Of a stretch of 64,000 bases of DNA, positions 1,978 through 34,248 are shown in pieces. Position 1 is the first letter of the stretch; each line of letters begins with the position of its first letter. The position numbers and the translations under genes are program-made. Source of the DNA: an uncultured Bacteroidales bacterium (GTDB lineage Bacteria; Bacteroidota; Bacteroidia; Bacteroidales; UBA932); NCBI GenBank assembly GCA_900316045.1, contig ONBM01000039.1:1-64000 (forward strand). Reading direction: 5' to 3'. The notes below the pieces were generated by a model that was not told where the DNA came from, did no database searches, and was given only the letters and a program-made list of their open reading frames with translations.

Positions 1978-4900
1978 ATGACCAGAATCAATCTTTTATC
2001 TGCCAAGGCATTCCGCATGTGCGCAATCGCCACGGCAATCTCGATTTCATTCGCGACATTTGCCCAGGAAACGCCTAAATGGCTGAGGAAAAATGCAATA
2101 TCGCCGGACGGGAATGTAGTGGCATTCTGCTATAAAGGCGATATATACACTGTCGGGATTGCTGGAGGACAGGCAATCCAGATAACAAGCAACGAAGCCT
2201 ATGATTCGGACCCGATTTGGATGCCGGACGGGAAGAACATCATTTTCTCATCCACCAGGGAAGGATCCAAAGACATATTCATGACATCTGCCAAAGGCGG
2301 GAAACCGAAGAGGCTCACAGACTATCCTGGCAGCGAGACGCCTTTGTGCGTGCTTCCTGACGGGAGGATAATTTTCCAGGCAAACATCGGCCAAGACGTA
2401 AAGTACGGCGGATTTCCTGGCTCGGCGCAGCTCTGGCAGGTGGACACCAATGCGAAAAGGCCATTGCTGGTCACTTCGCTCCCAATCATGAACATGAGCG
2501 TTAATGCGTCGGGAACAGTCATTTACGAAGATTACAAGGGGTATGAGGACGACCTAAGGAAGCACCATGCTTCTTCAGTGACCCGCGATATATGGATGTA
2601 CTCAGGCACGCAGAAGAACCCTGGCAGGTTCAGCATCAACGGGGACGGAGACTCGAAATTCACCAAGCTCAGCTCTTTCAAGGGCGAGGACCGCAACCCT
2701 GTGTTCGCCGCCGATGAAAAGACCTATTACTTCCTCAGCGAAGCCGATGGCACTCTGAACATCTACAAGGCCTCCATAGATGCCCCGGGCAGGCAGACTC
2801 AGCTTACGAAATTCACGAAGAACCCTGTCAGGTATCTCTCGGCTGCGAAGAATGGGACGCTCTGCTTCTCTTGGAACGGAGACCTCTATTCCTTGAAGGA
2901 AGGCGGCTCGCCTGAGAAGATTTCAATCAGCGTGTCTAGGGACCAGACTGAAAGCGATTTGAGATACATTACTTTCACCAGCGGAGGCAGCAGCGTGGCC
3001 ATTTCTCCCAACGAGAAGGAAATCGCAGTCGTGGCACATGGGGAGGTTTTCGTGACTTCCATCGATTACAAGACTACCAGAAGGATCACGAACACTCCAC
3101 AGCAGGAAAGAAACGTAAGCTTCTCCAAGGACGGACGCACTCTCTATTATTCCTCCGAAAGGGACGGATGCTGGGCGATATACAAGACTACCCTGGACGA
3201 CAAGGACGAAAAATATTTCACGTATGCCACCAAGCTGAAAGAAGAGAGATTCACCGATGCCGGGCAGACATGCTTCCAGCCGGATGTGTCTCCTGACGGG
3301 AAATGGGTGGCATTCTTGCGCGACAGGACCGAGCTGGTGATCAAGGCTACGGAAGGCGGCAAGGAGAAATCGCTAATGAAAGATGCGACATATTCCTACA
3401 CTGACGGAGATCTCGGGTTCGAATGGAGCCCGGACAGCCACTACTTGCTGACCACATACCAAGCGAACGGCGGATGGAACAATACTGACGTCGCTTTGAT
3501 AGACATTGATAACGGCCAGATAACAGACCTCACTAGGAGCGGCTACACCGACGGGAATTTCAAATGGGTTCTGGGAGGCAAGGCGATGGCTTGGCAGTCA
3601 GACAAGTACGGATTCAGGAGCCATGGCAGCTGGGGTTCTGAGGACGACATTTACCTGATGTTCTTCGATGCCAAGGAAATGAGCAAATTCCTCCAGGATG
3701 AGGAAAGCGAGGCGATAGCCAAGGCAATAGAGGAAGGTGGCAAAGAGAAGACAGAGAAGCAGGTGAAGAAAGAAGAGGAGAAGGAAAAGAAAGATTCCGT
3801 GAAACAGGCCGAAAAGCCTAAAAAGCTTGAACTCGACCTCGAACACAGGGATTACAGGATAAAGAAACTCACCCGCTTCGCCGGCAGGCTCGGAGACTAT
3901 TTCCTGACCAATGATGGGAAGAAACTCTACTATATCTCGCGCCTGGAAAAGAGCTATGACCTCTGCCTCCTGGATGTGAAGAAAGGGGACATCAGCGTTC
4001 TGAGAAAGGGCGTGAGCGGAATACTGGTTCCGTCAAGGGACGGCAAATACATTTACATCTGCGACGGAGCCACCATCACTCGGATGAGCACTGACAACAA
4101 TTCCACCAAGAGCATTTCTTTCTCCGGAGACTTTGAATATAAGCCGGTCCAGGAACGTGAATATCTCTTCAGCCATGTATGGAAGCAGGTGAAGGAAAAA
4201 TTCTACGATCCTGCTCTGCATGGAATAGACTGGGACGGCTACAAGGCCAATTACGAGCAGTTCCTGCCATACATCAATAATGATTTGGATTTCGCAGACC
4301 TGCTGTCAGAAATGCTAGGCGAGCTGAATGCGTCACACACGGGAGCAAGATATTATTCATCATCAAGGCTCAACATCGGCAGGCTGGGCGTCATCTACGA
4401 CTACGATTACGATGGTGACGGGCTGAAGATAGCCGAAGTGCTTCTTAACGGGGTCATAAACCTGGCCGACCCTGAAATCAAGGCTGGAGACATCATCCTT
4501 GCAATCAACGGCCAGCCAATCAAGGCAGGCGAAAGCTGGTTCAAGCTGCTGCAGAACACTGTGGGCAAAAAGACTGCGCTGAAAATCAAGAAAGGCAAAA
4601 AAGAAGTCGAGTTGTTCGTAACGCCTAGCTCATACGAATCAAATCTCTTGTACGACAGGTGGGTGCAGCAAAGAGAAGACGAGGTGGACAAGCTCTCCGG
4701 AGGAAAGGTGGGATATTCTCATGTTTCCGGAATGGACTCTCCTAGCTTCAGGCAGGTATATTCCAAGATTCTCGGGAAATACCGCACAGCTGACGCTGCC
4801 ATCATCGACACTCGCCACAATGGTGGCGGATGGCTGCACGATGACTTGGCATCGTTCTTAAGCGGCAAGGAATATCTTAAATTCCAGCCGCGCGGGAAAT

Positions 4901-30186: not shown

Positions 30187-31452
30187 ATGCAAAAGAAAGA
30201 TTTGGAGATAATGGCCCCAGCGGGCAACTTCGAGTGCCTTCGCGCTGCGATTCAGGGCGGAGCGAATTCGATATATTTCGGAATAGGAAACCTGAATATG
30301 CGCTCGCATTCGGCGAATAATTTCCAACCGTCTGATCTACAGGAAATCGTCCGCCTGTGCAGGGAAGCAGGCGTAAAGGCCTATATGACTTTGAATATCG
30401 TGCTTTACGAAGAAGACTTGGAGCCGATGCGAAGGGTTTTGGATGCTGCGAAGGCGGCTTGCGTTGATGCAATCATAGCTTCTGACATGGCGTGCATCTC
30501 ATATTGCAGGCAGATCGGTCTGGAGGTGCACATCAGCACTCAACTGAATGTCTCCAACGTCGAGGCGCTTAGGTTTTATTCCCAGTTCGCAGACGTGGTG
30601 GTACTGGCCAGGGAACTAAACCTGCATCAGGTGAAACATATTCATGAAGCCATAGAAAGGAAGCATATCACCGGGCCTTCCGGGGAGCTTGTGCGTATTG
30701 AAATGTTTGCTCACGGGGCGCTATGCATGGCCGTTTCCGGGAAATGCTACCTGAGCCTGCAAACTTACGGAGCTTCTGCCAACCGAGGGGCATGCTATCA
30801 GCTGTGCCGCCGCGGCTACGAGGTGACCGACCTGGAGACAGGGACGAAACTGAATATCGACAATAAATATATCATGTCGCCTAAAGACCTCTGCACCATT
30901 GAATTCATGGACAAGATCATTGATGCCGGGGTTCGCGTTTTCAAGATAGAGGGGAGGGCTAGGAGCGCTGAATATGTGAAACGCACGGCAGAGTGCTACA
31001 GAAAGGCAGCGGATGCCGTGTGCGATGGAACATACACTCCTGAATATGCGGCATCGTTGAAGTCCAGGCTTGCCGAGGTGTTCAACAGGGGTTTCTGGGA
31101 TGGCTATTATCAGGGTGCCAGGCTGGGTGAATGGAGCAAGGTTTATGGAAGCCAGTCTACCCGCACGAAGATTTACTGCGGTAAAATCACGAATTGGTTC
31201 GATAAAATCGGCGTCGCTGAAATATTGATTGAGTCTTCCCCGCTGCACGTAGATGATGACATTCTCGTGACAGGCTCTACCACTGGCTTATTCGAAGGCA
31301 CGGTTTCAGAAATCAGAGTCGACCTGAAACCTGTTCCGGAAGCCACTAAAGGCAGTTTCTGCTCCATCCCGATCATTTTTCCTGATGACTGGAAAGGCGA
31401 GCGCAAGCTTCGCCGCGGTGACAAAGTCTATCTTTGGCAGAAAGCCAAATAG
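30187..31452 (+). CDS. U32 family protein, TrhP-like (tRNA U34 hydroxylation)
   Basis: The 421-residue protein carries the U32 landmarks: LEIMAPAGNFECLRAAIQGG at the N-terminus, VVLARELNLHQV (about 142), and the cysteine-rich signature EMFAHGALCMAVSGKCYLSL followed by SANRGACYQLCRR (about 195-220), where conserved Cys residues are located. Members of this branch (YegQ/TrhP) support 5-hydroxyuridine formation in tRNA; others were described as collagenases. The short C-terminal domain (about 330-420) is also typical. The start follows a promoter element by four bases. The last four codons are the start of a tandem repeat that continues past the stop codon. Confidence 0.88.
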   Translation: MQKKDLEIMAPAGNFECLRAAIQGGANSIYFGIGNLNMRSHSANNFQPSDLQEIVRLCREAGVKAYMTLNIVLYEEDLEPMRRVLDAAKAACVDAIIASDMACISYCRQIGLEVHISTQLNVSNVEALRFYSQFADVVVLARELNLHQVKHIHEAIERKHITGPSGELVRIEMFAHGALCMAVSGKCYLSLQTYGASANRGACYQLCRRGYEVTDLETGTKLNIDNKYIMSPKDLCTIEFMDKIIDAGVRVFKIEGRARSAEYVKRTAECYRKAADAVCDGTYTPEYAASLKSRLAEVFNRGFWDGYYQGARLGEWSKVYGSQSTRTKIYCGKITNWFDKIGVAEILIESSPLHVDDDILVTGSTTGLFEGTVSEIRVDLKPVPEATKGSFCSIPIIFPDDWKGERKLRRGDKVYLWQKAK

Positions 31453-31595
31453 AACGGCCAACAACCTTCATCGCCTGCACTGTCGTAAAAAGGAAAGCCA
31501 AATAGAACGGCCAGCAACCTTCATCGCTTGCACAGCCGTAAAGGAAAGCCAAATAGAACGGCCAGCAACCTTCATCGCCTGCACTGCCGTAAACG
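31441..31595. repeat. three tandem copies of a 51-53 bp unit at the 3' end of the U32 gene
   Basis: Units start at 31441, 31494 and 31545, each with AAAGCCAAATAGAACGGCC. Unit 1 is 53 bp because of two additional As; units 2 and 3 are 51 bp. Only a few positions differ between copies. The first 12 bases of unit 1 are the last codons and stop of the U32 gene, so the array seems to have grown by duplication from the gene end without changing the protein. Confidence 0.88.
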
Positions 31596-31640: not shown

Positions 31641-31789
31641 ATTTCGCAGATGACTGTCGAGGGGCAGGCCGCCGAAGTGATTCCTTGGCAGGGTGTCTCG
31701 ACATCGGCCACATTTTTACCCTACGATGTCGCGTGGTACCCTTCTACAGCACGCTACAGGCCATATTCAGCGACAGGCCTTTGCGAAAT
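31641..31789. repeat. 149-bp structured repeat, copy A (upstream of transposase 3' end)
   Basis: It begins ATTTCGC and ends GCGAAAT, a 7-bp inverted terminal pair. Inside, TGTCGAG (31655-31661) can pair with CTCGACA (31697-31703), and CGACATCG (31699-31706) can pair with CGATGTCG (31724-31731). These two stems share bases, so only one can form at a time. Copy B at 32914-33062 is in the same orientation and has the same length, with six differences by my alignment. The 96 bases from here to the transposase stop show nothing else I recognise. Confidence 0.85.
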
Positions 31790-31885
31790 GGATATGTGAC
31801 CGAATCATAAAAAATGACTTTACATATAACATTGCGTAATCATAATTCAGACACACAAGATGGAACACTACATAAAATTATTTAT

Positions 31886-32815
31886 TTAACACGTTATCCA
31901 ATATTTCTTGCGACAAAAGAACACCAATATTTCTTGCGACAAAAGAACAACACGGCTTAACATTGAGACGGAATAGATGCGGTGATCCTGGCACAATTTT
32001 CGGGCAACCGCTATTTTCTCCGGAACGGTCGCTACGGAAATACGATTACGGCCAAACATATCCCTGAACAGTTTTTTTGCGTATTCACGAAGTTCCGTCT
32101 CAGTTACCTGCTGAACAAGTTTGTGCTTAAAGCAGGCTTCAAGTTCAAGTTTCTGATTCTTCTTCTGATGGATAAAAGATATGAATACGTATGAAGAGCC
32201 AAAGATATCCTCCACCCTCTTCCAATCGAAATAGCAGTGTGGCAAAATCATGCCTTCATCATTCATTCTCCACCATTGAGGCAAATTCACATGGGTATGG
32301 AACGTCAATCTTTGCCTATACAAAGACAACTCACTCAGAGGCCTGCCTATGTTCTCCAGCTCTGAGTGATCTACAAAATATATGTCTCCCGGCCCCCACT
32401 CATATTTCCAAGGCATCAAAGGGAATCTTGCAGAGAGGGCATTCCTATACACATATATTATTTTATTCTTCAATTCATCCGAATCATAGATTGGATCCAA
32501 ACTGACTTCCAGGTCCCCATTAATGTGAGATGACCTACCTTTATCACTGATGAACCTGTTCAGTATTGCAGTTATCCTTCTTGCGAATATGTCGCAGTTT
32601 CTTTCGGTGCCAGAAATAATCGCATGGAAATGCGTTGCCATTATCTGGTCTGTTAGAATTTTGACATCGCAAGCAAAGGAAGAAGCCGCTATCATATTCA
32701 TTATGAATATATAGTCTTTTCTTGTCTCACAGAGGAGATTTACATTGGTGCCGTTTGAGTAAATGTGGAAGCAATCATTAACAGAATCTGGTACGTATAA
32801 ATTATCCATGTTCAA
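31886..32815 (-). CDS. REP-associated / IS200-like Y1 transposase (RAYT-type), C-terminus altered
   Basis: This 309-residue protein has the HUH motif in MATHFHAIISG (about residues 58-68) and, downstream, IIYVYRNALSARFPLMPWKYEWGP, a counterpart (two parts: YVYRNALSAR and MPWKYEWGP) of the RAYT segment that normally supplies the catalytic Tyr and the PWSS region. Such single-strand transposases recognise REP-type hairpins. It is bracketed by two 149-bp direct repeats, consistent with a REPtron-like unit. The final 12 residues come from a frameshift caused by a 26-bp tandem duplication (31898-31949); without it the protein would end in DNVLNK. Activity is therefore uncertain. ATG 32809 is an alternative start. 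Confidence 0.78.
   Translation of the reverse strand: MNMDNLYVPDSVNDCFHIYSNGTNVNLLCETRKDYIFIMNMIAASSFACDVKILTDQIMATHFHAIISGTERNCDIFARRITAILNRFISDKGRSSHINGDLEVSLDPIYDSDELKNKIIYVYRNALSARFPLMPWKYEWGPGDIYFVDHSELENIGRPLSELSLYRQRLTFHTHVNLPQWWRMNDEGMILPHCYFDWKRVEDIFGSSYVFISFIHQKKNQKLELEACFKHKLVQQVTETELREYAKKLFRDMFGRNRISVATVPEKIAVARKLCQDHRIYSVSMLSRVVLLSQEILVFFCRKKYWITC
31898..31949. repeat. 26-bp tandem duplication inside the transposase 3' end
   Basis: Two identical adjacent 26-bp units, 31898-31923 and 31924-31949, each beginning CCAATATTTCTTGCG. As 26 is not a multiple of three, the second unit is read in another frame and changes the transposase C-terminus. Confidence 0.95.
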
Positions 32816-32913: not shown

Positions 32914-33062
32914 ATTTCGCAGATGGCTGTCGAGGGGCAGGCCGCCGAAGTGATTCCTTGGCAGGGTGTCTCGACATCGGCCACATTTTTACCCTACGAT
33001 GTCGCGTGGCACCCTTCTACAGCACGCTACAGGCCACATTCTGCGACAGGCATTCGCGAAAT
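32914..33062. repeat. 149-bp structured repeat, copy B (upstream of transposase start)
   Basis: Same orientation as copy A and about 96% identical. Ends ATTTCGC and GCGAAAT are kept, and both internal stems are unchanged. One difference (GTGGC here, GTGGT in copy A) keeps pairing with GCCAC through a G-T wobble. The surrounding gap, 32816-33216, has no other gene. From 33063 to 33216 I see only AT-rich then G-rich sequence without a clear feature. Confidence 0.85.
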
Positions 33063-33216
33063 AGATTGGTTCCGGAAAAAAAGTATCGGACTGATTCTTT
33101 TCACTTTTCTGTGGGTTGATAAGATTAATGTCTATCAGGTTCGGTAAAGGGGCGAGGCGGTGCAAGCGGTTTGGTTTGGGCTGAGTGGTTGTGCGGGGCG
33201 AAAGGGAAAGGCTGTC

Positions 33217-34248
33217 CTAGACGTTCTGGATGAATTTACGGGGGCCTTCGATGGAGCGCCAGTAATCGGAATCGAAGTCTGATGGGGCGACGAATGGGCC
33301 TTCATGATTTATCGTAAAGCAGAGGTAGTTGATTTTGTAGCCTTGCTTCATGAACATCCGCTCGTAGAATGTCTGGACGTCGGTCAGGGCTGCCATGGTC
33401 TCTTTGTCTAGCCCTGGAGCTGCATTGGTGCGATTAGATTCTGAATCAAGTTCAGGACGACGGGGGGTGTTAGGTTCTGAATCAAGTTCAGGATGACGGG
33501 GGGTGTTAGGTTCTGAATCAAGTTCAGGACGACGGGGGGCGTCAGATCCTGAATCAAGTTCAGGACGACGGGGGGCGTCAGATCCTGAATCAAGTTCAGG
33601 ATTACGGAAGGCATCAGGTTCTAGATTAAGTTCAGGATTACGGGGGGCGTTTGGCACATTCGGGTTGTAAAGGTCCGTGGTAGCGGCGAGGATATTCAGG
33701 CCATTCGCATTGGCGACTGCTTTGGTATATTCATAAAGAAAGCGACTGTCCGTCTTAAGATGGATACGCCCGCCCGGGGCAAGGAATTTCCTGTATTTTT
33801 CCAAGAAAACAGGACTGGACAGGCGCTTGTTCGCACTGCCAAGCTGGGGATCGGAAAAAGTAAGCCAAATTTCAGAAACCTCCCTCGGCGCAAAGAACGC
33901 CTCGATCAATTCTATCCTGGTTCGCAAAAAAGCAACATTGGGCAGATCATGTTCAACGGCATATTTCGCTCCCTGCCATAGCCTCGCCCCCTTGATGTCA
34001 ACCCCGATATAATTTCTGGACGGGACTCTCCGTGAAAGGTCAATAGTGTACTCACCACGTCCGCAGCCAAGCTCCAGCACGATAGGCTGAGCCTTCGCGA
34101 ACATATTCGAATTCCAATTGCCTTTAATCGGATGATCCAGCACGCAGAAACCGCCATCGGACTTGTCCATGACTTCCGAGGCAGAAGGCTGCAAGAGACA
34201 CTTGAAAGTCTCATTCTCTGCAAATTTCCGGAGTTTCCCGTGACCCAT
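33217..34248 (-). CDS. trmB: tRNA (guanine-N7-)-methyltransferase with in-frame repeat expansion
   Basis: TrmB methylates G46 of tRNA with S-adenosylmethionine. The Rossmann signature VLELGCGRGEYTIDLS (about 60-76), EIWLTFSDPQLGSANKRL (about 130-148; usual consensus is FPDPWPK-H) and the C-terminal TFYERMFMKQGYKINYL are present. The protein has 343 residues, about 70 more than expected. The excess is residues 199-270, six copies of a 12-residue unit (core PELDS-SDAPRR) encoded by 36-bp DNA repeats. They lie after TTDLYNP, in a loop before the conserved C-terminal segment, so the enzyme may still fold. It is the last gene of the run starting at trxA. Confidence 0.9.
   Translation of the reverse strand: MGHGKLRKFAENETFKCLLQPSASEVMDKSDGGFCVLDHPIKGNWNSNMFAKAQPIVLELGCGRGEYTIDLSRRVPSRNYIGVDIKGARLWQGAKYAVEHDLPNVAFLRTRIELIEAFFAPREVSEIWLTFSDPQLGSANKRLSSPVFLEKYRKFLAPGGRIHLKTDSRFLYEYTKAVANANGLNILAATTDLYNPNVPNAPRNPELNLEPDAFRNPELDSGSDAPRRPELDSGSDAPRRPELDSEPNTPRHPELDSEPNTPRRPELDSESNRTNAAPGLDKETMAALTDVQTFYERMFMKQGYKINYLCFTINHEGPFVAPSDFDSDYWRSIEGPRKFIQNV
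33439..33654. repeat. six tandem 36-bp palindromic repeats inside trmB
   Basis: Units start at 33439, 33475, 33511, 33547, 33583 and 33619, each 36 bp without spacers. The core CCTGAATCAAGTTCAGG (or TTCTGAATC at the left) is an inverted repeat of CCTGAA and TTCAGG with a five-base loop, followed by a G-rich stretch. The unit nearest the trmB 5' side (33619-33654) is the most diverged. The core belongs to a palindromic repeat type found dispersed in several bacterial phyla. The length keeps the trmB frame open. Confidence 0.95.

Follow-up and report, generated by a model that had tools for sequence, protein, structure and literature searches.

The trmB gene and its repeat array

The window considered here is the whole analysed stretch of 64,000 nucleotides of contig ONBM01000039.1, from the genome of an uncultured Bacteroidales bacterium (G000 below). 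Its minus strand contains trmB, the gene for tRNA (guanosine(46)-N7)-methyltransferase (33217..34248), and next to it a gene for a RAYT-like transposase (see below). The trmB product, 343 aa long with the repeat array counted in, matches NCBIfam model NF001080 (E 4.3e-71; 238.7 bits, passing the cut-off of 132 bits) and Pfam domain Methyltransf_4 (E 5.4e-23). Residues T293, Y295 and E296 are invariant in an alignment of 35 congeners, and both the NF001080 score and the invariant columns of the conserved motifs place the protein among the TrmB enzymes.

After the DLY motif and before the TFYE motif, this protein has a segment of 72 residues composed of (R/N/H)PELDS-type dodecapeptides. The underlying array (33436..33651, minus strand, 216 bp) consists of six imperfect, in-frame copies of a 36-bp unit, found in reading order at 33616-33651, 33580-33615, 33544-33579, 33508-33543, 33472-33507 and 33436-33471. 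Each unit contains CCTGAACTTGATTCAGG or its variant and corresponds to one CGTC-tagged REP-like hairpin with an 8-bp stem and a 5-nt loop. Tandem Repeats Finder reports 33434-33651, with period 36, 6.1 copies, 88% matches and score 289. A preliminary description of this DNA had already counted six in-frame 36-bp units adding 72 residues to the loop between DLY and TFYE, and this is borne out with exact bounds; the interval it gave, 33439-33654, is 3 bp off. On the 3' side of the array, the rest of the gene (33220..33435, minus strand) codes for the conserved remainder of the linker and the C-terminal part with TFYE, and is nearly identical in the sister genome (G101; JALCSU, MAG UW_MP_BACTE5_2; its trmB locus is L111). 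The palindrome core, with up to 2 mismatches allowed, occurs 11 times in the window versus 3.5 times expected, and 0 shuffles reach 11. Two of the array units fold as DNA with z of -5.6.

In an AlphaFold2 model of TrmB, built on 35 congeners, the core is mostly predicted at pLDDT >90, and approximately residues 204-276 are mostly at pLDDT <50, i.e., disordered. The disordered segment is located between the strand 186-190 and the helix 282-290, where the corresponding linker of B. subtilis TrmB (7nyb, 2fca) is short. The array is predicted to be disordered and to lie off the enzyme core.

A CGTC-tagged REP dispersed in two sister genomes

The 28-nt consensus of the repeat, CGTCATCCTGAACTTGATTCAGGATCTA, is predicted (z = -4.6) to fold as ....((((((((.....)))))))), with 8 bp in the stem and 5 nt in the loop. 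When 33 copies from G000 are aligned, the core is preceded by CGTCAT and followed by ATCTA/G; the tag, at positions -6 to -3 before the core, is conserved as C in 23, G in 26, T in 28 and C in 30 of the 33 copies. A terminal unpaired CGTC tag and an AT-initial 8-bp stem with a 5-nt loop are likewise features of family-2 of the CGTC-tagged REPs (Di Nocera et al. 2013, PMC3733652), and the trmB repeat, judged by its sequence, fits this superfamily and the geometry of this family. The same study lists CGTC repeats in Bacteroidetes. As here, the CGTC-tagged REPs it describes are dispersed mostly outside genes, with some in-frame intragenic copies. There are differences: the repeats in G000 have a tail in which CTA or CTG is commoner than CCA, which ends most, though not all, of the repeats in that study; they have RAYT-like genes near some copies, whereas no dedicated transposase was found there; and six of them stand head-to-tail in a single gene. 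Close pairs in this genome (C17, C45, C73 and the trmB array) are direct, whereas head-to-head dimers predominate among CGTC-tagged REPs, a matter of their organisation and not of how their sequence is defined.

The preliminary description had taken the palindrome for a mobile one, of a repeat type dispersed in other bacteria, and dispersed copies exist here too: in the retrieved stretches of these draft MAGs, the exact 17-bp core was found 26 times in G000 and 72 times in the sister genome, and 0 times in 100 further congener genomes. Elsewhere in the order, a longer, 26-bp form turns up sporadically, in 7 genomes and with up to 23 copies. The multicopy element is mostly intergenic; only 6 of the 79 scanned sister copies overlap an ORF of at least 120 aa. 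The distribution of copies supports mobility of the CGTC-tagged REP in this species pair. In front of many copies (L249 and others in G000) stands a 22-bp degenerate unit, GTCATCCTGAACGACCCACC, which suggests that this unit and the REP together make up a composite element.

The survey of copies and their phases that had been suggested for this genome was made by checking every REP copy for ORF overlap, and it gave, beside the 26 exact cores, three ORFs with REPs in frame: trmB, a 637-aa 4Fe-4S/CCG oxidoreductase, and an ORF of 392 aa whose N-terminus is signal-like and which has no Pfam match. In the oxidoreductase, the REP occupies the linker between the Fer4 and CCG domains (L243 2665-4575, C60 of G000). 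All three are read in the HPELDSGS frame, though with so few cases a frame preference is not proven. The alternative frame, expected to read as LNLIQDL repeats, is indeed present as an ORF at 33408-33614; among the REP copies checked for ORF overlap, this hydrophobic frame is used in no convincing gene. A peptide search of the genome for further in-frame copies produced weak matches only. The sister genome has REPs in frame in trmB and in the 4Fe-4S/CCG oxidoreductase, the latter with an extra partial unit sequence. The length of the oxidoreductase linker also varies among the few congeners read, so trmB may not be unique.

Copy number and selection

The sister locus is 96.5% identical to the window over 3.7 kb, and its trmB has 2 units instead of 6. 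The difference is exactly 144 bp, a multiple of 36 bp, so the expectation that copy number varies between strains holds for this pair. Outside the array, the two trmB genes differ with dN of 0.008 and dS of 0.11 (dN/dS about 0.07). Between the units of the array, pN (0.21) exceeds pS (0.076), which argues that the array peptide is not conserved. The flanking parts of TrmB are therefore under strong purifying selection, and the insert peptide is not, as far as substitution rates tell. The loop position given in the preliminary description, and a tolerated insert, agree with this and with the predicted disorder. The epithet "essential-type" for the enzyme was too strong, since laboratory strains of E. 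coli and B. subtilis can do without trmB, even if selection on it is strong here. These data support the notion of TrmB as a living, presumably active enzyme with tolerated and expanded mobile repeats.

The linker as a genus-wide hotspot

Linkers were collected from trmB of about 95 congener genomes and from 80 loci of named assemblies, two overlapping sets. The 122 distinct congener linkers have a median length of 24 aa and a maximum of 139 aa, and 44 of them are at least 30 aa long. Three or more palindromic families, dispersed in the genomes and unrelated to one another, are found in them, an invasion of the same loop that the preliminary description had missed. Element E1, with core CTTACGTGGCCGAGGGTGGC, is present in 18/122 linkers in three reading contexts and both orientations, namely forward in two frames (8 and 6 linkers) and reversed in one (4), giving peptides of PPLTWPRVATV-, PPSYVAEGGHG- and TVATLGHVRGG-type. 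Element E2 (TCATTTCGA...GAGAAATCTC) is found in further linkers (7 under the thresholds of the tree script). Dispersed copies of E1 occur in 61 of 101 congener genomes and are absent from G000; E2 has 5 to 47 copies in all 6 tested genomes with E2-like trmB linkers and none in G000 or the sister genome. From these patterns, the occupant of the linker tends to be a repeat family resident in the same genome. For 19 of the long linkers, no match was found among the repeat families scanned. Among linkers outside these families are those of L061 and L088, which are Gly/Ala/Val-rich and have 139 and 93 aa.

L063/L169 and L165 form a near-identical pair in trmB that differs by 96 bp, in frame. On a quick FastTree gene tree of trmB, where gains are indistinguishable from losses, the long or short state of the linker changes at least 23 times and the presence of E1 changes 12 times. 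In other genera of the order, the 148 TrmB matches listed exceed the query in net length by at most 6 aa, a control in which matches split by a large insert could be hidden among those beyond the ones listed. Inserts of at least 15 aa are seen in ricT, the gene beside trmB, in 1/72 species, and in trmB in 27/76. Apparent 28-aa insertions in holB proved to be two alternative clade alignments of a homologous segment, with no repeats. A search of plasmids for trmB relatives added nothing.

The trmB linker, as read from these sequences, is a genus-wide hotspot for unrelated palindromic repeats, with the rest of the enzyme remaining intact. No description of such a hotspot in trmB was found in the open-licence literature, and recurrent colonisation of one enzyme loop by several families appears to be new. 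A similar case is recB of X. campestris and X. oryzae, where different REPs occupy about one site of a conserved gene (PMC3733652); that case comprises two species, whereas the trmB loop holds no fewer than three families in tens of species, one of these families in three reading contexts. The loop represents a natural experiment, with many replicates, in making new protein segments from mobile non-coding DNA, complete with empty and filled relatives, different frames and both orientations.

A RAYT-like transposase beside trmB

The preliminary description had also overlooked the neighbouring gene at 31886..32815 (minus strand), assigned as a RAYT-like HUH/Y1 transposase from motifs, profile matches of its relatives, and fold. 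It belongs to a 1.27-kb module flanked by direct repeats of 164 bp, of which the trmB-side copy (32914..33077) is 93% identical to the distal one (31641..31804). In the sister, this module is absent at trmB and a single copy of the 164-bp repeat is kept, as either insertion here or loss there would produce.

Alignment of 22 relatives shows H62, H64, Y121 and N125 to be invariant, i.e., an HxH motif and a catalytic Tyr in YxxxN, with Asn at +4. Eleven of the 22 match NF047646, REP_Tyr_transpos (best E 2.3e-9); the window copy itself does not match it, and on its own retrieves nothing useful from Pfam (Y1_Tnp included) or NCBIfam. Its profile search of PDB is led by the ISDra2 transposase, weakly (E 0.09), and a RAYT in complex with a REP hairpin, 4er8, comes first among the fold matches of its predicted model (E 1e-3, prob 1.00). 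The HUH motif, the Tyr with Asn at +4, the fold and the local REPs all recall RAYT (TnpAREP) proteins, from which the clade differs in having YxxRN instead of YIHxNP and repeats nearby that are CGTC-tagged instead of GTAG-tagged. A RAYT-like subclass of Bacteroidetes flanked by atypical secondary structures has been reported (PMC6006769), and may be related to this clade.

In G000, 4 of 6 members of the clade lie within 4.5 kb of a CGTC REP (p 0.0002), and in the sister genome 3 of 5 lie near one (p 0.05), by a simple simulation with cutoffs picked after the data were seen. In particular, the RAYT-like gene of C61 (L244) has a REP on both sides, at 4357 and 5716, in direct orientation and with near-identical 60-bp context. 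On the other hand, three members of the clade, with identities of at least 45%, occur in genome G044, which has no exact core of the CGTC REP. The proximity of a RAYT-like clade to CGTC REPs is a new observation, and that the clade mobilises them is a tentative proposal for which the chances are slightly short of even. CGTC REPs were reported without a transposase, which was stated as an open question, and the clade is a testable candidate for the missing enzyme (PMC3733652). A bolder and rather doubtful extension is that this divergent clade mobilises the CGTC-tagged REPs and that they land preferentially in the trmB loop, a genus-wide safe harbour; if so, a conserved tRNA methyltransferase would harbour successive REP families, with possible effects on tRNA modification. 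As a separate matter, the last codons of the window gene include an exact 26-bp tandem duplication (31898-31949), which alters its C-terminal tail relative to the relatives.

Origin of the array

We consider it very probable that the array arose by in-frame insertion of a REP into the TrmB loop, expansion and tolerance, as part of genus-wide colonisation of this loop, with a RAYT-like protein as the candidate mobiliser. A CGTC-tagged REP would have landed in frame between the core strand 186-190 and the TFYE helix, and the array would then have grown by tandem slippage to the numbers seen in the two sisters. As the loop is predicted to be disordered and off the enzyme core, any open frame would be tolerated there, and purifying selection on TrmB would purge frame-breaking copies. 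The permissive loop would have been colonised independently in many congeners, each time by a palindromic family of the same genome; in the present case, the RAYT-like HUH clade with a member beside trmB would be the agent. The insert is presumably of no benefit to the host.

It is improbable that the array is instead a functional module of variable copy number, a contingency repeat tuning TrmB activity or its binding of tRNA or a partner. The different copy numbers of the sisters and the location just upstream of the conserved TFYE segment would suit such a role, but in congeners the loop holds unrelated peptides, one element read in various frames and in both orientations, or nothing inserted at all; amino-acid changes exceed silent ones between units, and the insert is predicted to be disordered. 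Slimmer still is the chance that the hairpins act in the mRNA, in translation pausing, stability or termination control, with the peptide as a by-product. Compared with shuffles, linkers of at least 30 aa do fold much better (mean z -3.8; -0.45 for linkers of 25-29 aa), as palindromes would, and this is accounted for by the elements being palindromes; moreover, many congeners have no hairpin there, and the z of the sister linker is only -0.9. An assembly artefact or a dead gene, conceivable in view of the draft state of both genomes, is highly improbable and was rejected, because in a separate assembly an array with another, likewise in-frame, number of units stands at this site, the units are distinguishable from one another, and dN/dS is low. 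Pure local tandem duplication within trmB, with no part played by mobile repeats, would explain the regular 36-bp period and was dismissed as practically untenable, given the dispersed copies of an identical 17-bp core, which share the CGTCAT...ATCT context. In-frame insertion of a mobile REP is retained for the array. The colonisation is real and live and of a known kind, and what is unusual is the genus-wide hotspot.

In-frame REPs have precedents in Rickettsia palindromic elements and in the study of Di Nocera et al. (PMC3733652). The likeness to the former, drawn in the preliminary description, is apt: they are palindromes tolerated in frame within genes, and RPE-4 and RPE-6 of R. conorii belong to the CGTC superfamily (PMC3733652). 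They are other families, however, and here one enzyme loop is repeatedly hit by unrelated families across the genus. PARCELs (PMC2996958) are also coding tandem repeats with dyad symmetry in DNA and apparently horizontal spread; they are 25-residue, amphipathic and often membrane-associated, whereas the trmB array has 12-residue units and is predicted to be disordered, in a cytosolic enzyme.

A different tandem array is found elsewhere in the window, where three 51-bp units (31436-31590) form the 3' end of a U32 peptidase gene; it also varies, as the sister locus has a gap of about one unit.
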